This document shows, one piece after another, positions 2,841 to 24,741 of a DNA stretch of 38,896 nt. Source of the DNA: a virus. Where the stretch lies: positions 1 through 38,896 of the IMG/VR virus record IMGVR_UViG_3300021371_000935, one strand, 5' to 3'. The notes beneath the pieces are model-generated. The model ran no database searches. It was not told the DNA's origin and saw only the letters and a program-made list of their open reading frames with translations. Made by a program: the position numbers and the translations under genes. Numbering within the stretch: position 1 is the first letter of the stretch; every line of letters begins with the position of its first letter.

Positions 2841-2848
2841 TATAAATA
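2841..2848 (+). promoter_or_regulatory. T4-type late promoter
   Basis: Exact TATAAATA, the sequence read by gp55-type late sigma factors in T4. With T4 geometry (element at -13 to -6), RNA would begin near 2854, leaving a short leader with the GGGAGG ribosome-binding site of the gene at 2870. It lies just after the helicase stop, where early genes give way to late ones. Confidence 0.8.
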
Positions 2849-2871
2849 GTGAGAAAGGGAGGTCTCACTAT
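2846..2871 (+). promoter_or_regulatory. ribosome-binding-site hairpin overlapping a late promoter
   Basis: Perfect 9-base inverted repeat (2846-2854 with 2863-2871). The 8-base loop AAGGGAGG is the ribosome-binding site, and the 3' arm runs into the ATG at 2870. Read-through RNA from the helicase operon would carry the whole hairpin. RNA begun at the late promoter (about 2854) would lose the 5' arm. This resembles the T4 gene e late-translation switch. Confidence 0.65.
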
Positions 2872-3196
2872 GGCTGAAGAAGAAAAACCACAATTTCATC
2901 CTGCCGATACAAACGGCGATGGTCAAGTCAGTGAAAAAGAACACGAAATGTACATGGAGTTCAGACGCAAAGAACTCGAAGATAAAGATGCTCAGAGAGA
3001 TGCTATTCGTAAGATGGCTTGGTTCTCTCTATGTGGACTTTTAGTATATCCTATTGGTATTGCTCTTACTTCATTGTTGGGCATGGAACAAGCAGCACAA
3101 TTGATTGCTGATATTGCTCCTACATACTTTGCTTCAATTGCAGTATTGGTATCCGCTTTCTTTGGTGCTGATGCTATTAGTAAAAAAACACAATAA
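2870..3196 (+). CDS. late small membrane protein with EF-hand-like loop
   Basis: Protein of 108 residues. Near the N terminus is a calcium-loop-like stretch DTNGDGQVSEKE (about residues 13-24), then a charged helix, then two hydrophobic segments (about residues 46-65 and 78-102) that look like membrane helices. Similar proteins of unknown role are common in marine T4-like phages. Two membrane spans, small size and late expression allow a holin-like or virion membrane role, but nothing proves it. ATG 2870 has GGGAGG 7 bases upstream; the longer frame from GTG 2849 would begin before the predicted late RNA start. Confidence 0.75.
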   Translation: MAEEEKPQFHPADTNGDGQVSEKEHEMYMEFRRKELEDKDAQRDAIRKMAWFSLCGLLVYPIGIALTSLLGMEQAAQLIADIAPTYFASIAVLVSAFFGADAISKKTQ

Positions 3197-3205
3197 GGCA
3201 ATATA

Positions 3206-4546
3206 ATGGCGAACTTCAATAAGAACACACAAACATTTGGTCCTCACGGACATGACAAAACAATCTTTGAAGTTCCAATGATTGCGACCAAGGATGGTCA
3301 AGTTGTTACACATGAAAATCCATTTCCAGTTACAATGTCCGCATCTGCTACAAGCACTGGATCTGATGCGTTCGGTAGAACTAGAACTTCTAATCCATTA
3401 ACTTTATTTGAGTCTAGCCATCGTTATGTTGATAACGACAAATGGCATGAATCTACTAGTGGTACTGCCTCTTCAGCGCACAATGCAGATGAGGGTCTAA
3501 TTGATTTAACAATCGATACTGCAAGCGGCGATGAAATCATTCGTGAATCTAAAAGAGTGATGGCATATCAACCAGGCAAGTCGTTGTTGATTATGACAAC
3601 TTTTGTTTTTGCTCCTGCTCAAGAAAATCTAAGACAGAGAGTAGGATATTTTGGTACAGAGAACGGTATATTCTTAGAGCAAACTGATAGCACACTAAGC
3701 ATTGTCAAGCGTAGTTCTATCTCAGGTTCAGTGGTAGACACACAAATCGCCCAAGACAGTTGGAGTTATGATAGTCTTGACGGCACTGGTCCTTCTGGTG
3801 AGACATTAGACATTTCTAAGGCTCAAATCTTTTGGATGGATCTAGAATGGCTTGGCGTAGGTTCAGTGAGATCAGGCTTTGTTATTGATGGCAAGTTTGT
3901 CGTTGCACATGTATTCCATCACGCAAATGAAGTGACAGGAACTTACATGACAACTGCCTCGCTTCCTTTGAGACAGGAACTCACCAACACGGGCATAACT
4001 GTATCAGCGAGCACAGCAAAGCAAATCTGTTCGACTGTTATATCAGAAGGTGGATATCAACTATCTGGAGAACAGTCTGCCATAAATACTCCTATTACTG
4101 CTGCTAAAGCACTAGCTGATAAAGGTGTTTATTATCCTGTAGCTGCTATAAGACTGAAAGCCTCGCCTGACAGATTAGATGCTATAGTTATTCTAAGCAA
4201 TATTTCTTTGATCGGCGTAGGCAACGGGATTAACTTTCACTGGAGACTAAGACAGGGTGGAACTGTAACAACTGCTTCTTGGACAAGCGCAGGGACAGAT
4301 TCTTCTGTTGAATATACACTTATAGGAACAGCAACGTCTGGTGGACATGTCGTGTTTTGTGGATTCTTTAACTCTTCTAATCAAAGTACTCCTACTATCA
4401 CTATACCTAAAGCAGACTTGTTCAAGTTTCAATTAGAAAGAAACTCATTCACAGGAACAGGTGAACCTCTTGTATTAGAAGTTACTGCCGCCACAGACTC
4501 AGAACAAGTCTTTGGCGGAATGGATTGGGAAGAAATATCTAGATAA
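3206..4546 (+). CDS. virion structural protein
   Basis: 446 residues, rich in beta-strand patterns, Ser/Thr and Gly, without signal peptide or membrane segment. The N-terminal part (DAFGRTRTSNPLTLFES, near residues 53-69) matches a structural family I recall from many marine phages and often found near tail or baseplate genes; the exact role is not known to me. It follows the late membrane protein after 9 bases with AAGG upstream, so it should be expressed from the late promoter at 2841. Appendage or decoration protein are both possible. Confidence 0.7.
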   Translation: MANFNKNTQTFGPHGHDKTIFEVPMIATKDGQVVTHENPFPVTMSASATSTGSDAFGRTRTSNPLTLFESSHRYVDNDKWHESTSGTASSAHNADEGLIDLTIDTASGDEIIRESKRVMAYQPGKSLLIMTTFVFAPAQENLRQRVGYFGTENGIFLEQTDSTLSIVKRSSISGSVVDTQIAQDSWSYDSLDGTGPSGETLDISKAQIFWMDLEWLGVGSVRSGFVIDGKFVVAHVFHHANEVTGTYMTTASLPLRQELTNTGITVSASTAKQICSTVISEGGYQLSGEQSAINTPITAAKALADKGVYYPVAAIRLKASPDRLDAIVILSNISLIGVGNGINFHWRLRQGGTVTTASWTSAGTDSSVEYTLIGTATSGGHVVFCGFFNSSNQSTPTITIPKADLFKFQLERNSFTGTGEPLVLEVTAATDSEQVFGGMDWEEISR

Positions 4547-4561
4547 AATTGAGTTTATATT

Positions 4562-5272
4562 ATGTGGAACAATTTGTATACGAGAGAAGAGCAACACAAC
4601 AGATATCCGATGTTCGAAAATATTTTCGGAGAAGTTGGAGATTCGACGGTATTAGACTACGGTGGTAATACTGCGAATCTCCTTTTCTTTTCTGAAGGAA
4701 AAATAAAAGAAGAAAACTACACCTGTATCGATCTAGACAAAGAAGCATTGAGGATAGGAAAGGAAGATTTTCCTAATGCAGAATTTCTAAAGTTCAATAG
4801 ATATAACTGGGCATATAATCACGACGGTGACTATCATGCCGACTATCCCATCCTAAGAAACGGAAGCGTTGATTACATTTTTTCATATAGCGTTTTCAGT
4901 CACTCAGATTTTCTAGACCTTATTATCACCCTACAATGGATGAAGACATTAGGTCCTAAGAAAATCGCCATCAGTATTATCACAACCGAAGACAAAGTAT
5001 TAACAAACTGGTTCTGGCAGAGACGAGTTCAGGAGTATGGAGAATGCGTAGACTTCAGGCCCGACATAGCAAACTGTACCTCTACCTTCTCTTTATTTGA
5101 CAACAATCTCGTGGTCACTGGGCATACGGCTTTACAAGAATATGATTCTAGGCATATTATCACTATATACGACCCAGACTGGCTCGTGGGGCGATTAAGA
5201 ACCGAAGGGTTCCACGCTAGGATCGAGCGTCCAAGAGGCAGTTTCGCTTCATTTGTAATAATAGACCAGTAA
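4562..5272 (+). CDS. class I SAM-dependent methyltransferase
   Basis: 236 residues with a Rossmann methyltransferase layout: motif I VLDYGGNTANL (about residues 29-39), the acidic end of strand 2 at YTCIDLD (about 53-59), and a motif IV-like VDYIFSYSVFSHS (about 99-111). No target-recognition domain for DNA methylation and no DPPY-type motif are visible, so a small-molecule, sugar or protein substrate is more likely than DNA. It lies 15 bases after a virion protein gene and closes this late group. Substrate unknown. Confidence 0.75.
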   Translation: MWNNLYTREEQHNRYPMFENIFGEVGDSTVLDYGGNTANLLFFSEGKIKEENYTCIDLDKEALRIGKEDFPNAEFLKFNRYNWAYNHDGDYHADYPILRNGSVDYIFSYSVFSHSDFLDLIITLQWMKTLGPKKIAISIITTEDKVLTNWFWQRRVQEYGECVDFRPDIANCTSTFSLFDNNLVVTGHTALQEYDSRHIITIYDPDWLVGRLRTEGFHARIERPRGSFASFVIIDQ

Positions 5273-5317
5273 ATCTACTATCTCTCACAGGCGCTTAGCA
5301 AGCGTCTCAGACGATTC

Positions 5318-5400
5318 CTAAGTCATTGATTTCATTGGACTTTTAGTTCTTGACAATAGACCCTTTCCTTGCTATAATATAGGCTTCTAAGTCATTGATT
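5318..5400 (+). repeat. two copies of a CTAAGTCATTGATT element
   Basis: CTAAGTCATTGATT occurs at 5318-5331 and 5387-5400, 69 bases apart, flanking an early promoter. Further copies, one direct with a mismatch and one inverted, lie upstream of the promoter at 30990. The rest of the 5273-5509 gap holds two promoters and a 6-base hairpin (GCGCTT, AGC loop) without a T-run. Confidence 0.6.
5350..5378 (+). promoter_or_regulatory. sigma70-type early promoter
   Basis: TTGACA 5350-5355, 17-base spacer, TATAAT 5373-5378 with TGC just before it (extended -10). It is the upstream one of two tandem promoters serving the small genes from 5510. Confidence 0.75.
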
Positions 5401-5439
5401 CTATTAGGCGAAAAAAACGAAAATAATTGAAAATAATGC

Positions 5440-5468
5440 TTGACATTTGCCTCAATAGGTGCTATAAT
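5440..5468 (+). promoter_or_regulatory. sigma70-type early promoter of the repeated family
   Basis: TTGACA 5440-5445, 17-base spacer, TATAAT 5463-5468 with extended TGC. The surrounding AATGCTTGACATTT and AATAGGTGC blocks recur at 38809 almost unchanged. The RNA start near 5475 leaves only about 5 bases before ATG 5480, which argues for the later start at 5510. Confidence 0.85.
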
Positions 5469-5509
5469 GTAAGCATAGAATGAAAAAACAAGCTGTGAGG
5501 GCTAATATT

Positions 5510-5767
5510 ATGACAACTACTTGGAACCGTGACGATCTTGTTGGTTATATCTCAGACCGATACAAGGAACTGAATGGCATTCGTCCTCGCTTTAATTGGG
5601 ACGAATGGAGCACCGAGGAGCTTGAGGCAGAGTGTGATAGCCTCAGTGCTCAGATCGAGTACGAGATCCATCGTGATCGCCTCGAAATGGAGGCGGCTCT
5701 TGGCGCCATGCTGGAGTATGCTCCAGATTTCGAAACTGCCCAACGATGGGCAAAGGAGTTTGTGTAA
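5510..5767 (+). CDS. early small protein, unknown function
   Basis: 85 residues, acidic and helical, with no recognised motif beyond resemblance to short early phage proteins that carry a similar YKELNGIRPRF-type stretch (about residues 17-27). ATG 5510 has GAGG 9 bases upstream and leaves a normal leader from the promoter at 5463; ATG 5480 would sit at the RNA start. Its stop overlaps the next start (TAATG). First gene of an early two-gene unit, perhaps a host-takeover protein. Confidence 0.65.
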   Translation: MTTTWNRDDLVGYISDRYKELNGIRPRFNWDEWSTEELEAECDSLSAQIEYEIHRDRLEMEAALGAMLEYAPDFETAQRWAKEFV

Positions 5768-5976
5768 TGAAATATACTAATTATCCTTGTCAGGTCGAAT
5801 TGGTGAAGTATCATCTCGGCGGTATGAAAGAAGGTATGCATACCTGTGAGAAAATGGGATTTCTAAACTGGAACGATGCCTGTACATGGGCAGGTTCAGT
5901 GACTCAAAGCCCTAAGGTTTCGTATGTCGTCCTCGAGATGCGTAACGTAAAAACAGGCGAAATTGAGAAATTTTAA
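5767..5976 (+). CDS. early small protein, unknown function
   Basis: 69 residues starting at ATG 5767, which overlaps the upstream stop; AGGAG lies 8 bases before it. The sequence has two Cys, several aromatic residues and a strand-rich C-terminal half (YVVLEMRNVKTGEIEKF) but no known catalytic pattern. Cotranscribed with the gene at 5510. Function not recognised. Confidence 0.6.
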   Translation: MKYTNYPCQVELVKYHLGGMKEGMHTCEKMGFLNWNDACTWAGSVTQSPKVSYVVLEMRNVKTGEIEKF

Positions 5977-5979
5977 TGC

Positions 5980-6008
5980 TTGACATTGTGCTTCCTAATG
6001 TGTATAAT
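5980..6008 (+). promoter_or_regulatory. sigma70-type early promoter of the regulator gene
   Basis: TTGACA 5980-5985, 17-base spacer, TATAAT 6003-6008 preceded by TG, with the family block AATGCTTGACATT. It begins right after the stop of the previous gene and gives an unusually long leader (about 85 bases) before the gene at 6099. Confidence 0.85.
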
Positions 6009-6014
6009 GTCAGC

Positions 6015-6070
6015 ATGTTTAAAGAATTTGAGAGTGATCTCAAATAGCGACCGCAAAGTCGTTTAATTTT
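6015..6070 (+). promoter_or_regulatory. structured leader with mini-ORF and two hairpins
   Basis: A 10-codon ORF (ATG 6015 to TAG 6045-6047, MFKEFESDLK) spans hairpin 1 (7-base stem, 6027-6033 with 6038-6044, GTGA loop). Hairpin 2 (CGAC 6048-6051 with GTCG 6058-6061) is followed by TTTAATTTT. Together they resemble a weak attenuator or a structured 5' leader ahead of a DNA-binding protein gene. Confidence 0.4.
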
Positions 6071-6098
6071 AATGTTAATAATCAAAGGTGATTATATT

Positions 6099-6386
6099 AT
6101 GGCTACAACTACTACAACTAAAACTGCTAAGGCAGCTCCTGCTAAGAACCAGAACGAGAAGATCCTTACTTTCCTCCGTTCAGGTCAGACACTTACTGAA
6201 GCACAAGCAGCTTCCATGTTCGGTGTTAAGCGTGTAAGCGCACGAGTAGCAGAACTTCGTGCAGCAGGCTACCCTGTTTACGCTAATGTAAACAAGTCAG
6301 GCAAAACTGCTTATCGTCTAGGTCGTCCTAGCCGTGCAATGATTGCTGCAGCTTATGCAGCAGCTGGATCAAAAGTATTCAGCTAG
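6099..6386 (+). CDS. winged-helix-type DNA-binding regulator
   Basis: 95 residues. After a Thr/Ala/Lys-rich N-terminal tail (residues 1-18) comes a compact helix-turn-helix-like core (ILTFLRSGQTLTEAQAASMF, then VKRVSARVAELRAAGYPV) and a YRLGRPSR end. It matches a helix-turn-helix family common in marine T4-like phages. ATG 6099 is chosen because AAAGGTGA lies just before it. It probably binds DNA to control transcription; strong promoter, structured leader and early position suit an autoregulated early regulator (inference). Confidence 0.75.
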   Translation: MATTTTTKTAKAAPAKNQNEKILTFLRSGQTLTEAQAASMFGVKRVSARVAELRAAGYPVYANVNKSGKTAYRLGRPSRAMIAAAYAAAGSKVFS

Positions 6387-6442
6387 TAGTAATGTCCTGG
6401 GCATGATGCGAAACTGCCCACTCAAATTCATTAGGAGGTAAT

Positions 6443-7003
6443 ATGGCAAATCATGTTGATAACTACATTCAAGTTCAAGGCAGTGCAGAAGCAGAAGCCG
6501 AATTTGAGCGAATCTTTGGAGGACTTATTGGTGATGACAAGTCATTGTTTGATGCCGAGTTCCTTCCAAGAAACGAAGATGGTAAGGTAGACATAGATTC
6601 AGTAGGCGCAAAATGGGCATTTGTCGAAGATGCTGCCGATGATTATGCTTGCGTTACTTCAGCATGGTCTGCTGTATTACCTTTTGTTGAGTTTCTAGGT
6701 GACCACCTGTTAGAAATTGACGAGAAGGTTCGAATTACTTGTCAATTTACAGATGAAGGTTACAACTTTGTTGGCTCAGCTTTATATCATGATGGCTACA
6801 TCATAGCAGACGAAGAGTACTATGAAGATTTAGTCGAGGCTCGTATGGCATATCTTTCTGCCAACGGAGAAGAAGTACCAGAAGATTCTGATGAGTATGA
6901 TCCATGGGAAGATGACGGTTGGCATGATTTTGTTAATGATAGAGTCCATGCAATAGAACTCGATCTAATGGAGTCATGTGAAAATGAAGCTCAACTGAAC
7001 TGA
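6443..7003 (+). CDS. acidic phage protein, YubB/DUF1281-like ferredoxin-fold
   Basis: 186 residues, strongly acidic. The start MANHVDNYIQVQG and the central GAKWAFVEDA...TSAWSA...DEGYNFVGSALY pattern resemble the YubB/Api92-type ferredoxin-like family of plasmids and phages, from memory. The C-terminal tail (about residues 125-186) is Asp/Glu-rich. An excellent AGGAGGT lies just before ATG 6443, so high translation is likely. A DNA-mimic or host-protein-binding role is conceivable from the charge but not shown. A weak hairpin (GGGCA 6399-6403 with TGCCC 6415-6419) lies between it and the regulator gene. Confidence 0.7.
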   Translation: MANHVDNYIQVQGSAEAEAEFERIFGGLIGDDKSLFDAEFLPRNEDGKVDIDSVGAKWAFVEDAADDYACVTSAWSAVLPFVEFLGDHLLEIDEKVRITCQFTDEGYNFVGSALYHDGYIIADEEYYEDLVEARMAYLSANGEEVPEDSDEYDPWEDDGWHDFVNDRVHAIELDLMESCENEAQLN

Positions 7004-7015
7004 GAAAACGAATCT

Positions 7016-7261
7016 ATGCCGCTAAACCAATCAGTGTTAAAGCTGTTCCTTGAGGATTGGGAATTTAATATGAATGAATCAGATGTGAAAAGAAAGATCG
7101 CAAAGGTAGTTATCGCTGGTCGTAAGTCGTTAGATCCTTCTTTCAAAATGTATTGGAAAAATACTGCTAAAACTTTGGCGACTAAATATGATGTGAACCT
7201 ATCAGAAATAGAAAAATGCCCGGAGTTTTATTATGAACCTAAAGTTAGTAGCATGCACTAG
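7016..7261 (+). CDS. small protein, unknown function
   Basis: 81 residues from ATG 7016; an internal ATG at 7070 would give 63 residues, and neither start has a convincing ribosome-binding site. Basic and helical in the middle (VKRKIAKVVIAGRKSL). It overlaps the next gene by 29 bases. No family recognised. Confidence 0.5.
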   Translation: MPLNQSVLKLFLEDWEFNMNESDVKRKIAKVVIAGRKSLDPSFKMYWKNTAKTLATKYDVNLSEIEKCPEFYYEPKVSSMH

Positions 7262-7580
7262 AGTTTACAAAAACATTGGTAGCATGGAAGTGCCAATGTG
7301 GCGGTGCGTAGATGGCGGTGAATATATCATCGAGCGATTTAAGAAAGAGCCTAAGTGGAAACAAGTTGGAGAAGCAATTACTAAGTTTCAACATATCCTC
7401 GAAGGCAAGCTAGAAGTAGATGTAAAAGAAATATATGCTGGCTTTGAACTGTATGATAACAATTCACTGACACACGGAGAAAATTTTCAGCTTCAAGAGG
7501 GCGGAACAATTGACTTTCCAGCAGAAGATGTCACCAAGATTGATGTAACGGAAGCAATGGATGGCATCAAAGGACTGTAG
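7233..7580 (+). CDS. hypothetical protein
   Basis: 115 residues from ATG 7233 with GGAG 8 bases upstream. Mixed alpha/beta composition, with a strand-like first half (LVACTRVYKNIG, MWRCVDGGEYIIERF) and no recognised motif. It overlaps both neighbours, so the three genes 7016-8286 are probably translated together. Confidence 0.6.
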   Translation: MNLKLVACTRVYKNIGSMEVPMWRCVDGGEYIIERFKKEPKWKQVGEAITKFQHILEGKLEVDVKEIYAGFELYDNNSLTHGENFQLQEGGTIDFPAEDVTKIDVTEAMDGIKGL

Positions 7581-8286
7581 ATTTACAATCGGGTACACTT
7601 ACTACAATGAACCTGAACTACTTCGACAACAACTAAATCTTTGGAAGCATTATCCACATCAAGTTGAAATAATACTTGTGGATGATGGTTCCAAAGAATT
7701 TCCTGCATACGATATTGTAAAAGATTTCGACTATCCAAACTTTCAATTATGGCGGGTAGATGAAGATTTGGGATTTAATAGTCATGGTTGTCGCAATTTA
7801 ATTGCTGACATAGCAACTTGCGATAACATATTATTCTCCGATATTGATTGTAACTTCTCACCTGAAACAATTGCGTTTCTAAAGCGAGTGACCTTCAATC
7901 CAAAAAGACTGTACTATTTTTCTTTTTACTCTTCTGCCTCATTTGAGTATCATCCTTGGCCAGGACATCCTAACGTCTTTATTATCAATAAAGACAAGTT
8001 TTGGGAAGCAGGTGGCTATGACGAATCGTTCACTGGTTGGCATCATGGCGACAGAGAGTTTATAGAAAGATTACAGATTGTGACAGAGCTATCAAAAATA
8101 TCAGATCACCTAGGCTTCACAGTAGTACGAGGCGCCAGAAAGTGTGAGGTAGATGCTAGAGTAGATAAAACTACTTATGATGATGTTCATATGGTCATAA
8201 AAATACCCACAAGTATGCCTCCAGAATCAGAATTAAAAGGCACAGTTAAAGAAAAAATTAACTTCTCGTATTCTCGATTATTATAA
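7561..8286 (+). CDS. family 2-type glycosyltransferase
   Basis: 241 residues with a GT-A fold signature: TIGYTYYNEPELL (about residues 8-20), VEIILVDDGSKE (about 35-46), and the DxD-like FSDIDC (about 93-98), followed by a GGYDESFTGWHHGDREF acceptor-loop motif. Such enzymes transfer a sugar from a nucleotide-sugar. With a nucleotide-sugar dehydrogenase in the same window, glycosylation of DNA, virion or host envelope is possible; the acceptor is unknown. It overlaps the previous gene by 20 bases, and its end contains the late promoter at 8282. Confidence 0.8.
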   Translation: MASKDCRFTIGYTYYNEPELLRQQLNLWKHYPHQVEIILVDDGSKEFPAYDIVKDFDYPNFQLWRVDEDLGFNSHGCRNLIADIATCDNILFSDIDCNFSPETIAFLKRVTFNPKRLYYFSFYSSASFEYHPWPGHPNVFIINKDKFWEAGGYDESFTGWHHGDREFIERLQIVTELSKISDHLGFTVVRGARKCEVDARVDKTTYDDVHMVIKIPTSMPPESELKGTVKEKINFSYSRLL

Positions 8287-8289
8287 ATA
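8282..8289 (+). promoter_or_regulatory. T4-type late promoter
   Basis: Exact TATAAATA with only 5 bases (CAGTT) between it and ATG 8295. With T4 geometry the RNA would begin at or next to the start codon. No Shine-Dalgarno sequence is present. It opens the long late block 8295-14382. Confidence 0.75.
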
Positions 8290-8294
8290 CAGTT

Positions 8295-9458
8295 ATGATG
8301 AAATTTAGCAAGTTTTTAAAAGAAGAAGCGGGTTCAGACGACAAGCTGAAACACCTAGAGCATGTAGAAGATCATGTTGTTCACGGTGGTTCAGAAGGGT
8401 TTGCACATGCCTTTCACGCCCTGAATGGTGTTCACGAGCAACTCAGAGGCGGAAAGAGCAGCACAAAGATTACTATGAAATACGATGGTAGTCCTTCTGT
8501 TGTCTTTGGCACACACCCAGAAACTGGTAAATTCTTTGTTGGTTCTAAATCTGTATTCAACAAAAATCCTAAGCTAAACTACACACCCGAAGACATTGAA
8601 AAGAATCACGGACACGCTCCTGGTCTTGTTAGTAAACTAAAAGCAGCACTTGAGCATCTGCCTAAAGTACATGACGGCAAGGGTGTCTATCAAGCAGATA
8701 TTATGCATGCTGGTGATGTCAAGCACGAAGGACATCGTGTGTCATATAAGACAAATACTATCACCTATCATCATCCTGCTGATTCAGAACACGCACAGAA
8801 AGCAGTGAATTCTAAGATAGGTGTTGCTGTACACACTGCCTACGAAGGCAAGAAGTTTGAGGACATGAAAGTCAAACAAGGTCATGTTCCTGAACTTAAA
8901 GATCACGAAGATGTACACCAGTTACCTATTCATCACGATGTGTCTAAGGCAGTGTACACACAGGCTGACCAATCTGAATACAAAAAGCATTTAGACGCAG
9001 CAGTTGAAGCATTTAAGAAGACACCGAAAGAGGCTCATGAAGCAGTGTCAAAGCATGTAATTCCTCTTAAAACTTACATGAACGCTACAGTAAGAGACGG
9101 CTCTACTCCTTCACATGAAGGCTTTGCTAAACATTACTCTACCGCAATGAAAAAGAAAGTCGCTGGTGTCAAGACAGACGCAGCAAAAGCAAAACATACT
9201 AAGACTCACGATGACACGATGAGTCATGTAAATAAGAACAAAGAACATATTGAAAGCGTCATTGCGATGCAGCAACACCTACAAAAAGCAAAAGGTGTGC
9301 TAACAAACGCTCTCAACTCACATAACACAATAGGACACGAAATAGCAGGCGCTCCTACAAATCCAGAAGGCTATGTTGTTCATCACAACGGCAAGCCGTC
9401 TAAGTTTGTACACAGACACGAATTCAGTGCTGCTAATTTTGCGAGGGCAGGTGACTAA
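8295..9458 (+). CDS. ATP-dependent ligase-like nucleotidyltransferase with head-targeting-like N terminus
   Basis: 387 residues belonging to an otherwise uncharacterised marine-phage family. It shows the marks of the covalent nucleotidyltransferase (DNA/RNA ligase, capping) superfamily: motif I KYDG with Lys62 as predicted nucleotide acceptor, a possible motif III at QADIMH (about residues 133-138), motif IV EGYVVH (358-363) and a motif V-like Lys at KFVHR (370-374). The N terminus (MMKFSKFLKEEAG) resembles T4 capsid-targeting sequences. It is very rich in His and Lys. ATG 8298 is an alternative start. Ligation of DNA or RNA ends, possibly delivered with the virion, is inference. Confidence 0.65.
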   Translation: MMKFSKFLKEEAGSDDKLKHLEHVEDHVVHGGSEGFAHAFHALNGVHEQLRGGKSSTKITMKYDGSPSVVFGTHPETGKFFVGSKSVFNKNPKLNYTPEDIEKNHGHAPGLVSKLKAALEHLPKVHDGKGVYQADIMHAGDVKHEGHRVSYKTNTITYHHPADSEHAQKAVNSKIGVAVHTAYEGKKFEDMKVKQGHVPELKDHEDVHQLPIHHDVSKAVYTQADQSEYKKHLDAAVEAFKKTPKEAHEAVSKHVIPLKTYMNATVRDGSTPSHEGFAKHYSTAMKKKVAGVKTDAAKAKHTKTHDDTMSHVNKNKEHIESVIAMQQHLQKAKGVLTNALNSHNTIGHEIAGAPTNPEGYVVHHNGKPSKFVHRHEFSAANFARAGD

Positions 9459-11224: not shown

Positions 11225-11565
11225 TGTGGATTCTATTAGTTAGAGCAGCTTTAACAGGTATATTTGGTTCTGCTTTCGGAAAATGGTTTCTGTCTACTCG
11301 CATGGGCAGATGGTTTCAAACGAAGTTAGATAACTTCATGGAATATCTCGCTAAAAAATACGATATAAATATAGCAAAGAAAGAAGCTAAGTGGGCATCA
11401 GAGTATCCCGGACTAGCTAATAAAATCGAACAATTAGAGGCATGGTCACATCCTCCTATTGCTCCTGGTGGTGCGACAGAACTTATGGAAGAGATTGCTA
11501 AACTTCAAAAAGAAATAGACGCACTCAAGCCAAAAGAAAGAACTCGATCTAGGAATAAAAAATAA
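11224..11565 (+). CDS. membrane-anchored coiled-coil protein of the lysis region
   Basis: 113 residues. An N-terminal hydrophobic segment (about residues 2-22) is followed by basic helices and a coiled-coil-like C-terminal half (MEEIAKLQKEIDALK, about 87-101) ending in Lys/Arg. It starts 1 base before the end of the lipase gene (TAATG). A single N-terminal span plus a coil suits a lysis accessory or internal virion protein; I do not recognise a named family. Confidence 0.65.
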   Translation: MWILLVRAALTGIFGSAFGKWFLSTRMGRWFQTKLDNFMEYLAKKYDINIAKKEAKWASEYPGLANKIEQLEAWSHPPIAPGGATELMEEIAKLQKEIDALKPKERTRSRNKK

Positions 11566-14382: not shown

Positions 14383-14391
14383 CTGGTCTAG

Positions 14392-14434
14392 GTTTGTTTT
14401 GTTATAAATACAAGTATGGAAAAACAAAACAAAC
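14392..14434 (+). promoter_or_regulatory. 12-base inverted repeat enclosing a late promoter and start codon
   Basis: GTTTGTTTTGTT (14392-14403) pairs perfectly with AACAAAACAAAC (14423-14434). The 19-base loop holds most of the late promoter and ATG 14416. RNA reading in from upstream would loop out and block the start; RNA begun at the promoter would lack the 5' arm. Low sequence complexity lowers certainty. Confidence 0.5.
14403..14410 (+). promoter_or_regulatory. T4-type late promoter
   Basis: Exact TATAAATA, 5 bases (CAAGT) before ATG 14416, the same spacing as at 8282. The predicted RNA start coincides with the start codon. No Shine-Dalgarno sequence is present. Confidence 0.75.
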
Positions 14435-15723
14435 AACGATTAGAACAGCTAGTACGTCAAGGTCTTGTGCCTAGCCGAAAACTCCCCATGCTCATGCAAG
14501 CCATGAGCAGTCTTTACATGGGCAAGCAACTCACGCCTACTGAGAGAGATATCCTAGCAAAATACATGCACAACATGACTGATATCATGTTGAAGGATGA
14601 TACTGTCTTTAATCGTACAAAATTACATACGCAACGAACAAAATATCAAACGGAGGAGACTACCGTGGACTTGGATGAAAAGATGGTTGATGGGGTTGAG
14701 ATACTAGACGGTCCCGAAGACGAAAACAAGAAAATGAAAATGAAGAAGAAAGAAAAAGACATGAAAGAGTCTAGAGAAGGTGACGAAGAAGAGAAAATGA
14801 GAAAGAAAGAAGAGAACAGGGCTAGACGCCTCTCTATTCGCAAAAGAGATAAGTTCCGTATGCTTCCAACTGAACTCAAAAAAGAGAAGATGAAAGCAGG
14901 CGTAGAAGAAGAAGTTATCAACTTCAACGCTATGTACAAAGAACAGTTTGAAGCTGCTCTAGAGTACTACGGTGTTGATAACATCCGTGATCTTCCAGAA
15001 GAGAAGAAAGCAGAATTCTTTAAAGTTGTAGACGTAGCACTTGAAGAAGCTAAGATGGCCAAGAAAGACCACGACGGCGACGGCAAGATTGAGACTTCTA
15101 CAGCAGAGTACATGGGTTCTAAAGACAAAGCTATCAAGAAAGCAATCAAACTTAAAGGCTTTGGTCCAGACGCTGGTAAAAGCAACATGAGCAATCCAGC
15201 AGCTAGAGCTTCTTTGATGAAAAAAGAAGAAGTAGAACTTGAAGAAGATATGCAAGTTAAGCAAGCTATCGGTATTGCTTCTGATAAGCGGTACAAAGGC
15301 GGCAACATGACTGGAGCCGTTAATGCTATTGAAAAAATGCGTAAAGGCTTGTCAGATCATCCTCAAGTCAAGGCAGTTCTCAAGCGACAAAACGAAGAGA
15401 CTGAAAGACTTGATGAATATGGCAACCCTGCTGCTACTCCTGACAGACTTGCTATGATTAGAAGAGCGGCTGACAGAGTACAAAGCGGACAAGCTGCTAA
15501 AGATGTTAAAAAAATAGCTAAAGCAGACATGAAGCAGAAAGGTGCTCAAAAGGGCATGGCTCCTACGAAGAAAAGAAGCACTGCTCACATCGAGTATGAT
15601 GTAAATGAACAAGTAGCTTCAATCAGAAAAATAATTAAAGAAGGCTCAGCAAAAGAAAAAATTGAAGCCTACAAAGAACTCAACACAATTATAGAACAAT
15701 TTAAAACAACGGGAGAACTATAA
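14416..15723 (+). CDS. mosaic structural/internal protein with EF-hand-like segment
   Basis: 435 residues of modules seen separately in marine T4-like phages (from memory): an N-terminal helical domain (RLEQLVRQGLVPSRKLP, residues 8-24), a long Lys/Glu-rich stretch (about 85-150), an EF-hand-like DHDGDGKIET near 218-227 followed by YMGSKDKAIKKAIK, and VKQAIGIASDKRYKGGNMTG with LSDHPQVKAVLKRQNEE (about 280-327). There is no signal, membrane span or enzyme motif. Late promoter, charge and composition suit a core or internal virion protein, perhaps cut by the prohead protease. The start has no ribosome-binding site. Confidence 0.6.
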   Translation: MEKQNKQRLEQLVRQGLVPSRKLPMLMQAMSSLYMGKQLTPTERDILAKYMHNMTDIMLKDDTVFNRTKLHTQRTKYQTEETTVDLDEKMVDGVEILDGPEDENKKMKMKKKEKDMKESREGDEEEKMRKKEENRARRLSIRKRDKFRMLPTELKKEKMKAGVEEEVINFNAMYKEQFEAALEYYGVDNIRDLPEEKKAEFFKVVDVALEEAKMAKKDHDGDGKIETSTAEYMGSKDKAIKKAIKLKGFGPDAGKSNMSNPAARASLMKKEEVELEEDMQVKQAIGIASDKRYKGGNMTGAVNAIEKMRKGLSDHPQVKAVLKRQNEETERLDEYGNPAATPDRLAMIRRAADRVQSGQAAKDVKKIAKADMKQKGAQKGMAPTKKRSTAHIEYDVNEQVASIRKIIKEGSAKEKIEAYKELNTIIEQFKTTGEL

Positions 15724-16265
15724 TGTCCGGATGGTCAAGAACTACAAAACCAAGTGCTGATACAACTATTTCAGCAGGTGACATCTACGGTGTAGACCGT
15801 AACGAAATTGCAGTGACAGAAGGCATTGCACAAACTGGTTGGGTAAAGCGTACTACTGTTGGCAGTCGTGTTAAGCACGAAGTCCTCGTAGCTATGAAGA
15901 CTCCCCCTACAGAAGATAACGCAGACGATTCAGTATTTCCTGATACAGTACTTGCGATTGGCACACAACCAGCAAGTCGCAGTGATGCAACTGGTTCAGC
16001 GGTAACATTTAGTGTTGTTGCTACTGCAACACCAACAGCAACTATCTCATACGCTTGGGAAAGATCGCTTGACTCAGGTGCTAACTGGGTAACAGTAGAC
16101 GGTGTTATCGACGGCGGTGTGTACAGTGACTTTACGCTTGATACACTAGCTGTTTCTGACAACACTGGTCTTGATACTTATCAGTATCGTGTAGTAGTTT
16201 CTGCCGCTGACACTGGCGCAGCAGACGTTACTTCAACAGCAGCAACATTAACAGAAACCGTATAA
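15723..16265 (+). CDS. virion protein with Ig-like domain
   Basis: 180 residues. The N-terminal part (SGWSRTT to RVKHEVLVAMK, about residues 2-59) matches a short structural domain of marine phages. The C-terminal half (about 85-180) has the alternating strands and YAWERSLDSGANW...YQYRVVVSA pattern of Ig-like domains found on capsid and tail surfaces. ATG 15723 overlaps the upstream stop and follows GGGAG. Likely a decoration or appendage protein. The last codons and stop contain the next late promoter. Confidence 0.7.
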   Translation: MSGWSRTTKPSADTTISAGDIYGVDRNEIAVTEGIAQTGWVKRTTVGSRVKHEVLVAMKTPPTEDNADDSVFPDTVLAIGTQPASRSDATGSAVTFSVVATATPTATISYAWERSLDSGANWVTVDGVIDGGVYSDFTLDTLAVSDNTGLDTYQYRVVVSAADTGAADVTSTAATLTETV

Positions 16266-16268
16266 ATA
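16261..16268 (+). promoter_or_regulatory. T4-type late promoter
   Basis: Exact TATAAATA whose first bases form the stop codon of the preceding gene. The predicted RNA start near 16274 leaves a leader with AAGGAG before ATG 16293. Confidence 0.8.
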
Positions 16269-16290
16269 CTTTTTATTTAAGGAGTATTTA
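16263..16290 (+). promoter_or_regulatory. hairpin between late promoter and ribosome-binding site
   Basis: TAAATACT (16263-16270, mostly the promoter itself) pairs perfectly with AGTATTTA (16283-16290); the AAGGAG at 16279-16284 runs from the loop into the 3' arm. Only RNA passing through from upstream contains both arms. Confidence 0.55.
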
Positions 16291-16292
16291 AT

Positions 16293-16733
16293 ATGGCAGA
16301 TGCGAAACTATCAGAACTAACAGCGGCCACTGCGGCCGCTGGAACTGATATCCTTTATACAGTACAAGGTAGTAACAGTAAAAAGACAACTGTTGCTACT
16401 TTGTTTTCTGACGTAGCAACACCTGTAAAGTTTAGTGATACAATTGCTATTACTGATACTAACACTATGACCGCCGTGGGCGAAATTATCACTACTACTA
16501 ATATCACGCTTATTAACAATGTTGATGTTGGAGGTAACTTCACTATAGGAAACGGCACCGAAGGCCAACTAAAAATTATAATTATGACTTCGAATACTGG
16601 CGGCCATATTTGCACCTTGCAAGGTTCTACTATGGCAAGAGATGTAGTATTTGATGCAGCAGGCGAAACTGCAACCCTACTATATACTAATAGCAAATGG
16701 TATTTCATTGGAGGTACCGCTACAGTATCATAG
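16293..16733 (+). CDS. virion structural protein
   Basis: 146 residues. It starts MADAKLSELTAATAAAGTDI, a Thr/Ala-rich N-terminal pattern frequent in phage fibre, baseplate and decoration proteins. The rest is strand-rich (ITDTNTMTAVGEIITTTN; GGHICTLQGST; WYFIGGTATVS) and may form a small beta-sandwich cap. No membrane or enzyme signature. It has its own late promoter and a strong AAGGAG, so it is probably abundant in virions. Confidence 0.65.
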   Translation: MADAKLSELTAATAAAGTDILYTVQGSNSKKTTVATLFSDVATPVKFSDTIAITDTNTMTAVGEIITTTNITLINNVDVGGNFTIGNGTEGQLKIIIMTSNTGGHICTLQGSTMARDVVFDAAGETATLLYTNSKWYFIGGTATVS

Positions 16734-16742
16734 GATTACATA

Positions 16743-18113: not shown

Positions 18114-18116
18114 CAC

Positions 18117-18145: not shown

Positions 18146-18146
18146 A

Positions 18147-18174
18147 AACCTATACTAAACGTGTAGGTTTTTTT
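18147..18174 (+). terminator. intrinsic terminator of the late block, overlapping a start site
   Basis: AACCTATAC (18147-18155) pairs with GTGTAGGTT (18161-18169) over 9 positions with one T-G wobble, 5-base loop, then a T-run up to 18174. It lies 34 bases after a stop codon. RNA starting at the overlapping promoter would lack most of the 5' arm and so escape termination. Confidence 0.75.
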
Positions 18175-19853: not shown

Positions 19854-21655
19854 TGGCAAAAAAAGAGTACATGGGAATTCAAATAGATTATAGCAGAGAT
19901 GCGCTATTTGATAAGTTAGGACTAGCTAGACTCAAAGAAAGCTACATGCGAGAAGACGAAGAGTCTCCTCAAGAACGATTCGCACATGTAAGCGCAAAGT
20001 TTGGTAGCAATCCAGAACACGCACAGCGTTTATATGATTACAGTAGCAAGCATTGGCTTTCCTATTCTACTCCTATTCTCTCTTTTGGTCGTTCAAAGAA
20101 AGGCATGCCTATCTCATGTTTTCTAAACTACATTAATGATACAGCGGAGGGACTCGTTGAAAACCTTTCTGAAACAAATTGGCTTTCTATGCTTGGGGGT
20201 GGCGTTGGGATTGGTTTTGGTATCCGTTCCTCTGATGATAAGTCTGTTGGTGTTATGCCTCATCTCAAGACTTACGATGCATCGTGCCTCGCATATCGCC
20301 AAGGCCGCACTAGACGGGGCTCTTACGCTACTTATCTTGATATATCTCACCCAGATGTGATGATGTATCTTGAGATGCGAAAGCCGACAGGTGATCCGAA
20401 TGTTCGCTGTTTGAATCTTCACCACGGCATCAACATCTCAGATCGTTTCATGGAAATCATTGAACGATGTATGACTGATTCTGATGCTGACGATGGTTGG
20501 AATCTATGTGATCCACACTCAGGTGAAATCAGAGACACAGTGTCAGCAAAGCATTTGTGGCAGAAGATTCTTGAGCTTCGTATGGAAACAGGCGAACCGT
20601 ATGTTCACTTCATTGACACAAGCAATCGTCACTTGCCTGAATGGCAGAAAGAATTAGGACTTAAGGTACATCAATCTAACTTATGTTCAGAAATTATTCT
20701 GCCTACAAACAAAGACAGAACAGCAGTATGTTGTTTGTCATCTGTGAATCTTGAGCATTACGATGCTTGGAGCAAGAACGGTTTGTTCCTCAAAGATATC
20801 GCAGAGATGCTAGACAATGTACTACAGTATTTTATCGACAACGCACCTGATCAAGTCGCACGAGCTAAGTTCTCAGCAAGCCGTGAAAGAAGTATTGGTG
20901 TAGGCGCATTAGGCTTTCACGCTTACTTGCAGCAGAAGAATCTGCCGTGGGAAAGCGCAATGGCTAAAGGCGCTAACCTAAGAATGTTCAAGCACATAAG
21001 AGGAAAACTCGATGACGCAAACAAAGAACTGGGGGAAGCCAGAGGTGAAGCCCCAGACGCTAAGGGACGAGGTCTTAGATTTAGTCATGTTATGGCTATT
21101 GCTCCCAATGCTAGTAGCAGTATTATTATGGGCAACACTTCGCCTTCCATTGAACCTTTTAGGGCGAACGCTTACAGGCAAGACACTCTTTCTGGAGCTT
21201 TTCTCAACAAAAATAAGTATCTGGTACAACTCATTCAGAGTAAGATTGAAGCTGGCGAAACAAAACAGGCAGAAGACGAAATCTGGTCATCGATCATCTC
21301 AAACGACGGATCAGTCCAACACTTAACTTTCTTAGACCAGTGGGAGAAAGATGTATTCAAGACCTCAATGGAGATTGACCAGCGATGGGTGATTGAACAC
21401 GCCGCTGATAGACAAGAGTTTATCGATCAGGCGCAGTCACTCAACACATTCTTCCGTCCTGACTCTAACATCAAGTATCTACATGCTATTCACTACATGG
21501 CATGGAAGCAAGGCTTGAAGACACTTTACTATTGTCGTTCAGAGAAACTAGGCAAAGCAGATAAAGTATCTAATCGCATTGAACGTCAAATTATCAAAGA
21601 GATTGACATGACAGCACTTGTAAACAATGACGAATGCTTGGCATGTGAAGGATAA
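19853..21655 (+). CDS. nrdA: class I ribonucleotide reductase, large subunit
   Basis: 600 residues. It reduces ribonucleoside diphosphates to deoxy forms with the NrdB radical subunit encoded at 22957. Visible active-site parts are SCFLNYIND (N-terminal redox Cys), SNLCSEI (radical Cys and Glu), CCLSSVNL (second redox Cys), the YY pair in LKTLYYCRSE that relays the radical, and the C-terminal CLACEG thiol pair. The N terminus begins directly at the barrel region, so the ATP-cone allosteric domain is missing and dATP inhibition is probably absent. ATG 19853 overlaps the thyX stop. Confidence 0.95.
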   Translation: MAKKEYMGIQIDYSRDALFDKLGLARLKESYMREDEESPQERFAHVSAKFGSNPEHAQRLYDYSSKHWLSYSTPILSFGRSKKGMPISCFLNYINDTAEGLVENLSETNWLSMLGGGVGIGFGIRSSDDKSVGVMPHLKTYDASCLAYRQGRTRRGSYATYLDISHPDVMMYLEMRKPTGDPNVRCLNLHHGINISDRFMEIIERCMTDSDADDGWNLCDPHSGEIRDTVSAKHLWQKILELRMETGEPYVHFIDTSNRHLPEWQKELGLKVHQSNLCSEIILPTNKDRTAVCCLSSVNLEHYDAWSKNGLFLKDIAEMLDNVLQYFIDNAPDQVARAKFSASRERSIGVGALGFHAYLQQKNLPWESAMAKGANLRMFKHIRGKLDDANKELGEARGEAPDAKGRGLRFSHVMAIAPNASSSIIMGNTSPSIEPFRANAYRQDTLSGAFLNKNKYLVQLIQSKIEAGETKQAEDEIWSSIISNDGSVQHLTFLDQWEKDVFKTSMEIDQRWVIEHAADRQEFIDQAQSLNTFFRPDSNIKYLHAIHYMAWKQGLKTLYYCRSEKLGKADKVSNRIERQIIKEIDMTALVNNDECLACEG

Positions 21656-22323
21656 TGTTAGAAAGAATGATTGAAAGGGTAACAAGTCGTTACCCAATTG
21701 AAAAGATTCTGCCTTTTTGTCAAGTAGCAGACAATGACGAACGTCCCAGTACTGATGTATTCAAGACACATGACTGGGAAAATCGCCCTGGTAGTTTATT
21801 GCATTGTATATATATAGAAAAGAGGTTTGATAATAGGGCTGGTTATTATATTTATCGAGAGGATGGTCAGATAATATCTGGGCACGGATATTACCCTTTT
21901 GATGAAGATCCTAACATATATGTGTTGTGTAGAGGATATTCTATACCGTCATATAAACCTAAACTAGGAAAAAAAACTCTTATTCATATGAATCTTTTAG
22001 GTTCTGTAATTGCTGACAGAGCATACAAAGAAGGATATCTAGGCTTAATAGACACGTTTGAAAAACATAACGAAAAACTAGCAGAAAAACTTGTAAAAAT
22101 AACAGACCCTAAAAGACATCCAAATTATCATTTCGACACAGAGATAAAAGACGGAAGAATTTTTAAACCTAGACACTACAAAGAAGGTGATCTAAGGACC
22201 CAACCGATGACAATGTTCGGAAGATGTATGATTAGATACACCGAACAGATAGTCGTATATCACTTGTTTGATGAATCCTATGAAAATGAATTAATCAAAA
22301 AACTAACAGGAGTAAAAATATAA
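21655..22323 (+). CDS. unknown protein in the nrd operon, possibly GNAT-fold
   Basis: 222 residues, no clear catalytic motif. A mixed strand/helix pattern with GYYIYREDGQIISGHGYYP, then LCRGYSIPSYKPKLG and LGLIDTFEKHNEKLAEKL resembles phage acetyltransferase-like (GNAT) proteins, but the acetyl-CoA loop is not convincing. It starts in the nrdA stop (TAATG) and overlaps the nitroreductase gene by 1 base. An operon place between nrdA and a flavoprotein suggests a link to nucleotide metabolism without showing it. Confidence 0.5.
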   Translation: MLERMIERVTSRYPIEKILPFCQVADNDERPSTDVFKTHDWENRPGSLLHCIYIEKRFDNRAGYYIYREDGQIISGHGYYPFDEDPNIYVLCRGYSIPSYKPKLGKKTLIHMNLLGSVIADRAYKEGYLGLIDTFEKHNEKLAEKLVKITDPKRHPNYHFDTEIKDGRIFKPRHYKEGDLRTQPMTMFGRCMIRYTEQIVVYHLFDESYENELIKKLTGVKI

Positions 22324-22952
22324 TGCAAGACATGAAAAAAGTAATTCATAAGAGCCAACACTGCCAACGAAATTGGGACTTGTCGAAAGAAATTCCACAA
22401 GAAGATTTAGATATTATGCTAGAGGCTGTAACACAGTGTCCTAGCAAGCAGAACAAAGCCTTCTACAAAGTACACTTCATCACTAACCGAGATGTCATCG
22501 AAAAAGCACACGCAAACACAGTTGGTTTCGGTAATTATCTAACAATCAATGAAAACACTGCAAAGTTCGAACCGCAAACTAATTCACAAGTTCTTGCCAA
22601 TCTTCTCGTAGTTTTTGAAAAGTATGACGAAGATAAGGTACAACAGCACCCTAATCCAGAATTTGAATTCGACACAGAACAAGTAGAAAATTCAGATAGA
22701 GACACAGCGGTAGGTATTGCAGCAGGTTATCTAAACCTCACTGGTTCTCTTCTTGGTTATTCTACTGGTTGTTGCGGTTGTTTTCAGCCACAAAAGATGC
22801 AAGAAGTTTTAGGCTTAGAAAAAGAGCCATTGTTGCTAATGGGTGTTGGTTACCCTGATGAAACAAGAAACAGAAGAATGCATCACAAAGATGAAAACTT
22901 CAAGTTTCCAACGATTAAGAAAACACCTATCCCTACTAACATAATCCGGTAA
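22323..22952 (+). CDS. nitroreductase-family flavoprotein
   Basis: 209 residues. QCPSKQNKAFYKVHFITNR (about residues 39-57) and a later GIAAGYLNLTGSLLGYSTGCCGCF (GSLLGYSTG loop) match the FMN-dependent nitroreductase fold, in which NAD(P)H reduces flavin. The GCCGC cluster is unusual and adds three close Cys. It sits between nrdA and nrdB, so it may serve redox supply to RNR or ThyX (inference). Similar genes occur in marine myoviruses. Confidence 0.75.
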   Translation: MQDMKKVIHKSQHCQRNWDLSKEIPQEDLDIMLEAVTQCPSKQNKAFYKVHFITNRDVIEKAHANTVGFGNYLTINENTAKFEPQTNSQVLANLLVVFEKYDEDKVQQHPNPEFEFDTEQVENSDRDTAVGIAAGYLNLTGSLLGYSTGCCGCFQPQKMQEVLGLEKEPLLLMGVGYPDETRNRRMHHKDENFKFPTIKKTPIPTNIIR

Positions 22953-22956
22953 AAAA

Positions 22957-23934
22957 ATGGCTACAAAATTGAAGTTGACAGATGAAAGGAGCTATTTCAA
23001 GCCTTTCAACTACGCTTGGGCATACGATGCTTGGCTAAAGCACGAACAGTCTCATTGGTTACACACAGAAGTACCAATGAACGAAGATGTAAAAGATTGG
23101 AAATCAAAACTGTCTGATGCAGAAAAAGGATTTCTTACTAACATCTTCCGTTTCTTTACTCAAGGTGATATCGATGTGGCGGGTGGTTATGTAAATAACT
23201 ACTTGCCTAACTTCCCACAGCCTGAAGTTAGAATGATGCTCGCAGGGTTTGCTGCTCGTGAGGCTCTTCATGTAGCAGCATATTCCCACCTCATTGAGAC
23301 ATTGGGCATGCCTGAGTCTACTTACAATGAGTTTCTTGAATACGAAGCGATGAAAGAGAAACACGATTATCTTCAAGAACTTTCGATGGAGACACAAGAC
23401 AAGACAACAATCGCTACTAACATTGCGGCGTTTTCAGCATTTACTGAAGGTATGCAGTTGTTCTCGTCTTTCATTATGTTGTTGAACTTTCCACGCCATG
23501 GTAAGATGAAAGGCATGGGTCAGATTGTTACTTGGTCAATCGTAGACGAAACTTTACACGCCGAGAACATGATTAAATTATTCCGTGAATATGTAAACGA
23601 GAACATTGACCTGTGGAACGATAGCCTCAAAGGTAAGATTTATACTATCGCAGAGAAGATGGTAGAATTAGAAGATCAGTTCATTGATCTAGCGTTTGCG
23701 ATGGGTGCTATGGAGAATCTAACCTCAGAAGATGTGAAGAAGTACATTCGTTACATCTGTGACAGAAGATTGATTAGTCTTGGACTCAAGGGCATCTTTA
23801 AAGTTAAGAAGAATCCATTGCCGTGGGTAGAAGAAATGATTAATGCTCCTACTCACACAAACTTTTTTGAGAATAGAGCAACTGATTATGCTCGTGGAGC
23901 ACTTTCAGGTAATTGGGGAGACGTTTGGGCATGA
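22957..23934 (+). CDS. nrdB: class I ribonucleotide reductase, small (radical) subunit
   Basis: 325 residues of the ferritin-like R2 fold. Metal and radical residues can be placed: Asp71, Glu102 and His105 (REALHVAAYS), with Tyr109 at the radical-tyrosine position, the same spacing as E. coli D84/E115/H118/Y122; the second metal half shows VDETLHAENM. This is the partner of NrdA. It starts 4 bases after the nitroreductase gene with only a weak ribosome-binding site; its TGA overlaps the next ATG. Confidence 0.94.
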   Translation: MATKLKLTDERSYFKPFNYAWAYDAWLKHEQSHWLHTEVPMNEDVKDWKSKLSDAEKGFLTNIFRFFTQGDIDVAGGYVNNYLPNFPQPEVRMMLAGFAAREALHVAAYSHLIETLGMPESTYNEFLEYEAMKEKHDYLQELSMETQDKTTIATNIAAFSAFTEGMQLFSSFIMLLNFPRHGKMKGMGQIVTWSIVDETLHAENMIKLFREYVNENIDLWNDSLKGKIYTIAEKMVELEDQFIDLAFAMGAMENLTSEDVKKYIRYICDRRLISLGLKGIFKVKKNPLPWVEEMINAPTHTNFFENRATDYARGALSGNWGDVWA

Positions 23935-24359
23935 CCGAATGGGAAGTATTGAAAGATAGATGGATACAATATTATGTTAAGGTAGCAAAAGATACCGCAT
24001 TGTTATCTTCTGCTAAAAAACTACAAGTAGGGTGTGTCATTGTACGAGACAACAGAATACTGTCAATAGGATACAATGGTACTCCCTCTGGTTGGGACAA
24101 TTGTTGTGAAGAGAATGGTAAAACAAAACCTGAAGTCCTTCACGCAGAAGCAAATGCGCTAATGAAGTTATGTAGCTCAACAGAGTCAAGCCTACGTGCT
24201 ACATTGTTTGTCACTCATACTCCATGTATTGAGTGTGCTAAACTTATCTATCAAGCTGGCATCTCGCAAGTGTACTATATAAATGAGTATAACGCAACAA
24301 AAGGTTGTGGACAGGAGTTTTTAGAAAAGGCGGGAATAAGATGTCAGATAGTATCATAA
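23931..24359 (+). CDS. cd: dCMP deaminase
   Basis: 142 residues. HAEANAL supplies the zinc His and catalytic Glu, and PCIECAK the two zinc Cys, the cytidine/deoxycytidylate deaminase signature. It converts dCMP to dUMP, the substrate for ThyX, so three steps of dTTP supply (NrdAB, deaminase, ThyX) lie in one operon. ATG 23931 overlaps the nrdB stop (ATGA), preferred over an upstream in-frame start at 23913. Confidence 0.93.
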   Translation: MTEWEVLKDRWIQYYVKVAKDTALLSSAKKLQVGCVIVRDNRILSIGYNGTPSGWDNCCEENGKTKPEVLHAEANALMKLCSSTESSLRATLFVTHTPCIECAKLIYQAGISQVYYINEYNATKGCGQEFLEKAGIRCQIVS

Positions 24360-24529
24360 TCAATAAAACTGTAGAATGCGAAGAGTGTGAGGCAGAATAT
24401 AAAGTACGCCACGACATGTCAGACAGGCATTATGTAGTAAGTTTTTGTTCTTTTTGTGGTGCAGAGTTAGAGATTGAAGCATCGCTCGATGACTTCATAG
24501 ATGAAGAAGATATAGAGGAAGATTGGTAA
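24341..24529 (+). CDS. small zinc-ribbon protein with acidic tail
   Basis: 62 residues. CEEC (about residues 12-15) and CSFC (about 36-39) form a likely zinc ribbon; the last 20 residues are almost all Asp/Glu. ATG 24341 lies inside the deaminase gene end (19-base overlap). Similar small zinc proteins are frequent in T4-like marine phages, with no known job. Overlaps the next gene by 1 base. Confidence 0.7.
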   Translation: MSDSIIINKTVECEECEAEYKVRHDMSDRHYVVSFCSFCGAELEIEASLDDFIDEEDIEEDW

Positions 24530-24741
24530 TGACAAAATGGCATGGGGGCAAGGGTTCAGCACGCCGCAAGGGTGCTGACGATAAAAAGTTCGCCGATAAC
24601 TGGGACAAAATCTTCAGCAAGAAGAACGATACTGACCTGAAGTTTACGACTGCTGAAGACTTTATAAATAGTGTTTCTGATGATGAAGGAACACTAGATG
24701 ACAGTGAAGAAAAGGAAGCCGAAGGAGAAACAGGTACATAG
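24529..24741 (+). CDS. small conserved phage protein
   Basis: 70 residues. The basic start TKWHGGKGSARRKGADDKKF is a pattern I recall from small phage proteins of unknown role; the C-terminal half is acidic. ATG 24529 overlaps the upstream TAA. The late promoter and hairpin at 24663-24696 lie inside its 3' part, and it overlaps the next gene by 44 bases in another frame. Confidence 0.65.
   Translation: MTKWHGGKGSARRKGADDKKFADNWDKIFSKKNDTDLKFTTAEDFINSVSDDEGTLDDSEEKEAEGETGT
24663..24670 (+). promoter_or_regulatory. T4-type late promoter inside a coding region
   Basis: Exact TATAAATA within the preceding gene. RNA would begin near 24676, leaving 22 bases with AAGGA before ATG 24698. The attached hairpin supports a real promoter rather than chance. 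Confidence 0.65.
24669..24696 (+). promoter_or_regulatory. hairpin hiding the ribosome-binding site of the GIY-YIG gene
   Basis: TAGTGTTTC (24669-24677) pairs with GGAACACTA (24688-24696), 9 positions with one T-G wobble. The GGA of the ribosome-binding site is in the 3' arm, and the ATG begins 2 bases later. RNA begun near 24676 would lack the 5' arm. Confidence 0.6.

Follow-up and report, generated by a model that had tools for sequence, protein, structure and literature searches.

How is a late gene kept untranslated when a same-strand gene upstream reads into it? The question arises in the window analysed here, a 38.9-kb virus record covering part of the genome of a T4-like marine phage. 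The window contains uvsX, gp41, primase, thymidylate synthase, nrdA, nrdB and dCMP deaminase genes, together with genes for a virion protein, a cytidyltransferase, endolysin-like and spanin-like products and a head protein. Its late structural genes are interspersed with early/middle-type genes on the same strand (uvsX, gp41, primase, nrdA/B). The gene order from gp41 to nrdB resembles that of Syn9, and relatives include the Methylophilales phage Melnitz, cyanophages and many IMG/VR contigs. The phage collection holds no close DNA relatives of bases 1-25000, and neither known RNA families nor tRNAs were found for the window.

T4 offers a precedent. Hairpins spanning the late promoter and the start region act as a switch at genes e, soc, 49, I-TevI/II/III and segB, and at Aeh1 mobE (PMC3014915, PMC2988022). 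In gene e and I-TevI, hairpins of the same geometry as those described below keep early read-through RNA untranslated (PMC3014915, PMC2988022), and the late RNA of gene e lacks the 5' arm. A sequence-only reading of the present DNA had proposed this switch as a general rule for its late genes. That reading found real T4-style switches, but it overstated their reach. Neither the hairpin nor a second, predicted leaderless device is general to late promoters; they are reserved for some genes.

Late promoters in the window

The late promoter element TATAAATA occurs eight times in the window (seven copies on the plus strand, one on the minus strand), against 2.05 expected, and none of 100 shuffles reaches eight. 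Five plus-strand copies, at 2841, 8282, 14403, 16261 and 24663, lie before gene starts, exactly where the sequence-only reading had placed them. With the minus-strand copy at 30721, six T4-type late promoters are thus located immediately 5' of a gene. For the switch, the gene order also provides a same-strand upstream gene that reads in. The exact copies at 11364 and 33326 are intragenic with no start codon nearby, and two is the number expected by chance. The same -10 element precedes late genes in other marine T4-like phages, as NATAAATA in S-PM2 and Syn9 (PMC2984593) and as TATAAAT in Melnitz (PMC9004378). The late-promoter passages of these two papers mention neither leader hairpins nor leaderless starts.

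Inverted repeats link promoter and start region at four of the five plus-strand promoters, and the arms proposed earlier hold base by base with small corrections. The stem of only five bases noted at 8282 is likewise borne out. For the five promoters as listed above, the best perfect stems are 9, 5, 12, 8 and 7 bp. Among 1500 random 70-nt pieces of the window, stems of at least 7 bp occur in 12%, at least 8 in 4.3%, at least 9 in 1.6% and at least 12 in 0.4%. In the mismatched-arm control, arms are taken from other late promoters or exchanged between gene families. Three SD-led window promoters beat this control (p = 0.015 at 2841, 0.029 at 24663 and 0.044 at 16261), and the minus-strand one does not. 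The hairpin is identified by covariation at 2841 and 24663, and from sequence and folding only at 16261 and 14403.

Table 1 Positions of promoters, hairpins and genes in the window.
Position	Strand	Feature	Remarks
2841..2848	+	Late promoter -10 box TATAAATA, directly after gp41, before gene 2870-3196	Exact match
2846..2871	+	Hairpin, arms 2846-2854 / 2863-2871	SD AAGGGAGG in loop; start codon 2870
2870..3196	+	Late gene, small EF-hand-like, membrane-protein-like ORF	
8282..8289	+	Late promoter, offset of ATG 8295 from first base exactly 13 nt	Predicted leaderless late mRNA; no strong hairpin
8295..9458	+	DUF6267-domain gene, no SD	Pfam E 7.5e-96
14392..14434	+	12-bp inverted repeat, arms 14392-14403 / 14423-14434	Around -10 box and start codon
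14403..14410	+	Late promoter, offset of ATG 14416 from first base exactly 13 nt	Predicted leaderless late mRNA
14416..15723	+	SD-less late gene of unknown function	
16261..16268	+	Late promoter -10 box	Exact TATAAATA match
16263..16290	+	Hairpin, 5' arm 16263-16274 (-10 box + CTTTTT), 3' arm 16279-16290	3' arm over SD AAGGAG
16293..16733	+	Late gene behind 16261 switch	
24529..24741	+	Small upstream ORF overlapping 24698 gene	C-terminal tail encoded by hairpin
24663..24670	+	Late promoter -10 box	Exact TATAAATA match
24670..24695	+	Hairpin, arms 24670-24677 / 24688-24695, 3' arm over part of SD	Strong covariation
24698..25042	+	Late gene of unknown function behind 24663 switch	
30721..30728	-	Late promoter without hairpin, SD-led gene 29959-30696	Mismatched-arm p = 0.88

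Covarying hairpins at 24663 and 2841

At 24663, the arms AGTGTTTC/GGAACACT form 8 bp including one G.U pair, and the 3' arm covers the GGA of the SD. Relatives of gene 24698 carry a stem of 6-8 bp that extends from the last A of the -10 box to just before the start codon. Across this family we count 26 double-sided changes, a number reached in none of 500 shuffles. In the 15 distinct long-loop leaders, 97.5% of the cells pair and five pairs change on both sides, giving a covariation score of 0.579, compared with 0.242 for shuffled leaders and at most 0.25 for slid structures. Five short-loop leaders agree with the covariation. Because the arms change together across relatives, the 24663 hairpin is, judged by its covariation, a real RNA structure.

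The 24698 gene retains this promoter downstream of several different, unrelated ORFs. The stem doubles, in most relatives, as coding sequence for the tail of the small overlapping ORF. We rejected coding constraint as the source of the covariation, as residues swap V/T to follow the pairing, and short-loop leaders (for example L198, L200 and L228) covary behind other upstream ORFs or none. In the tail of the 24529-24741 ORF, the swap (V/T to T/V) changes INSVSDDEGTL into INSTSDNEDVL, and the promoter also lies within the tail reading. The 24698 protein contains, by eye only, a GIY-YIG motif-like VYCTYFPDGTYYIGYS...YYGSSK. Its identity as a GIY-YIG homing endonuclease is not established, with no match to Pfam or PDB profiles and a model pLDDT of 50.

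At 2841, the arms ATAGTGAGA/TCTCACTAT form 9 bp. Relatives of gene 2870 that bear a late promoter have a stem that runs from the last A of the box up to the base preceding the ATG, with differing sequences (AGTGAGA/TCTCACT, AGTAG/CTACT, AATAGT/ACTATT, and AATAG/CTATT in Melnitz). This family shows 15 double changes against 4.7 in shuffled leaders, and 0/500 shuffles match it; three leaders (L034, L036 and L042) fit the common register poorly. Here too the arms change together across relatives, which argues that the 2841 hairpin is a real RNA structure. The compensating base changes looked for in the arms are thus present at both loci. The 2870-3196 product has 594 confirmed relatives, is widespread in marine phage contigs and gives Pfam matches below the cut-off. 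In two gene 2870 homologs (L054 and L060), a long two-part helix (about -19 to -20 kcal/mol) replaces the short stem and runs through the -10 box and SD.

Folding of the read-through and predicted late RNAs is consistent with a switch. At 24663, TIR pairing drops from 0.77 to 0.36 in the predicted late RNA and the helix is lost. The predicted relief at 2841 is modest (0.54 to 0.42); this helix, too, is lost. Since the SD at 2841 sits in the loop, the block, if any, would act on the start codon and the ribosome footprint.

Limited use of the hairpin

The part of the earlier proposal that concerned T4-type read-through hairpins is supported at these two loci, but the general rule is not. Among 69 SD-led late gene families in the relatives, the mismatched-arm test yields two at p<0.05, compared with 3.5 expected, so that true arm pairs match no better than exchanged ones. 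Promoter-spanning repeats are not enriched at late promoters over the same families. As a positive control, this test ranks segB, 49 and e first in T4, followed by inh and I-TevI, whereas soc is missed. A broader accessibility-shuffle test is flat across late families; it is insensitive where one of the arms consists of the -10 box (p=0.20 for T4 e), and our conclusions do not depend on it. The rule also fails at 8282, where a same-strand gene reads into the promoter, yet there is no hairpin. The promoter at 30721 does lack the hairpin, as had been claimed (p=0.88; best perfect stem 5 bp), but as a single case it provides a weak contrast. These controlled counts indicate that the T4-type device is reserved for some late genes.

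In T4, hairpin matches (p<0.1) are found at 5/14 promoters on the early/middle strand and at 1/13 on the other strand (rank test p=0.04). T4 early and middle RNAs share one polarity, and the strand bias lends some support to the read-through logic. The T4 inh late promoter (L315 112042, minus strand) scores like known hairpin-controlled genes (p=0.06) and is not among the T4 cases in PMC3014915 and PMC2988022. In addition, a Melnitz tail fibre gene (L027 7273, record 107273) has a promoter-spanning repeat, TACACA/TGTGTA (p ~0.03-0.06).

Predicted hairpins at 16261 and 14403

At 16261, the -10 box together with the T run behind it (TAAATACTTTTT) pairs with AAGGAGTATTTA over 12 bp, including two G.U pairs, hiding the whole SD. 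This pairing between box and SD is the arrangement found in T4 e, segB, 49 and I-TevI, and the sequence layout is nearly that of e and I-TevI. In the folds, TIR pairing falls from 0.91 to 0.24 in the predicted late RNA and the helix is lost. Nine distinct leaders of the 16293 family keep the hairpin; they hold no informative variation, and no covariation is found among them. At 14403, the arms GTTTGTTTTGTT/AACAAAACAAAC form 12 bp with the start codon in the loop. The start codon of other 14416 homologs lies within other helices. These folds, like the upstream-arm hairpins seen in leaderless members of the 24698 and 14416 families, are suggestive and not significant by family.

It could be argued that only 24663 and 2841 are functional, and that the 16261 and 14403 hairpins reflect chance or composition. 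The missing covariation at 16261, its mismatched-arm p of only 0.044 and the absence of general enrichment all fit such a reading, as does the 14403 3' arm, which is coding sequence and would be conserved anyway. On the other hand, strong -10/start pairing (E <= -5) is found in 5/108 late families or promoters and in 0.6% of ordinary starts, and the five are the 16293 family and T4 I-TevI, 49, segB and e. Moreover, the close relatives L001-L005 and L013 retain the 5' arm of 14403 between diverging flanks. We thus regard this restriction to two loci as rather unlikely.

Start codons at the predicted RNA start

The start codons behind 8282 and 14403 are located exactly at the predicted T4 late +1, a feature absent from the sequence-only reading. 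In T4, the -10 box is numbered -13 to -6, and late RNA begins roughly one helical turn downstream of it. This numbering puts the first T of the box at -13, hence the A of an ATG at 13 nt would be +1, and we infer that late RNA starts at this offset. At 8282, the spacing between box and ATG is kept in more than 20 homolog leaders.

Box-to-ATG offsets are bimodal, with 71 contexts from 13 families at 12-14 nt, 197 SD-led contexts from 69 families at 24-50 nt and five contexts at 15-23 nt, a split that may be partly made by the method, as gene starts were called by a rule preferring 11-14 nt if no SD is present. Within the 12-14 nt class, 58/71 contexts have exactly 13 nt, and 0/71 have an SD. 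Raw ATG counts, for which no genes were called, show a peak at 13 as well (31; the adjacent offsets have 4 and 5), where control motifs give 2-11. Starts at 13 nt account for 9/23 promoter-start pairs in the Pelagibacter phage isolate HTVC008M and 3/27 in Melnitz, compared with 0/33 in T4 and 0/24 in Syn9. All nine in HTVC008M (9/9) match annotated CDS starts. These nine annotated HTVC008M genes, which start exactly 13 nt after the first base of NATAAATA, include baseplate, tail and DNA-end-protector genes, and eight lack an SD.

Late mRNAs of the 12-14 nt class, including those of 8295 and 14416, should be leaderless, which would be the case for up to 9/23 promoter-start pairs in HTVC008M. 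A predicted leaderless late mRNA at 8282 would also explain the missing hairpin there. If the class is true, it would correct gene-start predictions that rely on the SD. Our literature search, which covered few subscription papers, turned up no report of late transcripts lacking a leader in T4-like phages. A passage of PMC5312081 describes phage transcripts as often leaderless. As in leaderless mRNAs, the AUG of 8295 and 14416 would be at the predicted 5' end, and there is no SD. Unlike leaderless mRNAs generally, the present class is tied to a gp55-type late promoter with a fixed 13-nt spacing, and it is seen in HTVC008M, Melnitz and relatives of the window and is absent from T4 and Syn9.

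Some 24698 relatives have no SD leader, and their ATG lies 12-13 nt from the box. As homologs in this family use either form, the hairpin and leaderless forms may be interchangeable. We tentatively suggest, as a possibility short of an even chance, that late translation in marine T4-like phages of the Pelagibacter/Methylophilales type is timed by a promoter-coupled leaderless switch, in which +1 is the A of the start codon and the late RNA, but not upstream RNA, can be translated without an SD.

Proposed mechanism

The sequences, spacing, covariation and predicted folds together make it probable that the window uses the known read-through switch of T4 on other genes, along with a leaderless variant. 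Several late genes would be kept untranslated on RNA reading in from upstream. At 2841, 24663, 16261 and probably 14403, a hairpin in the read-through RNA would take up the SD and/or start codon, blocking translation by the mechanism of T4 e, I-TevI, segB and 49. Since the 5' arm is located within, ahead of or immediately behind the -10 box, RNA from the late promoter is predicted, from the T4 numbering, to lack all or most of it and would be translated. At 8282 and 14403, where the ATG is the predicted +1, the late RNA would be leaderless, whereas read-through RNA would have the start codon without an SD and, from the missing SD, is presumably poorly translated. Expression from these switches would be late.

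The likeness to T4 comprises a late promoter just 5' of the gene, a same-strand early/middle gene upstream, and a hairpin across promoter and start, predicted only for the read-through RNA, that would take up the SD and/or AUG. The differences are that other genes in other phages are involved, that the 5' arms at 2841 and 24663 lie behind the -10 box and evolve freely, and that the putative switches, known here from sequence, show covariation across many relatives. A textbook T4 device would be extended, with support from covariation, to unrelated marine phage genes.

An alternative is that the hairpins belong to the 5' end of the late RNA, which would start just behind the box, and that as stem-loops there they give the message stability or hold the SD in place instead of blocking read-through RNA. 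In both the 2841 and the 24663 family, the last base of the -10 box is where the 5' arm begins, and late RNA starting at offset 8-9 would therefore retain most of the stem; the leaders of T4 genes 25 and 38 do contain structure that helps initiation. However, the T4 start about one helical turn after the box, the gene e late RNA without its 5' arm and the 12-14 nt ATG class all point to a later +1. In addition, most or all of the 5' arm at 16261 and 14403 falls within or ahead of the box, which keeps that part out of the late RNA, and SD spacing is normal without the stem. We consider such stem-loops improbable. Still less credible, and in our view very improbable, is that an autorepressor binds the repeats as DNA sites over the late promoter; I-TevI does bind an operator overlapping its own late promoter, but the arms described here vary freely so long as they pair, unlike a fixed binding site.
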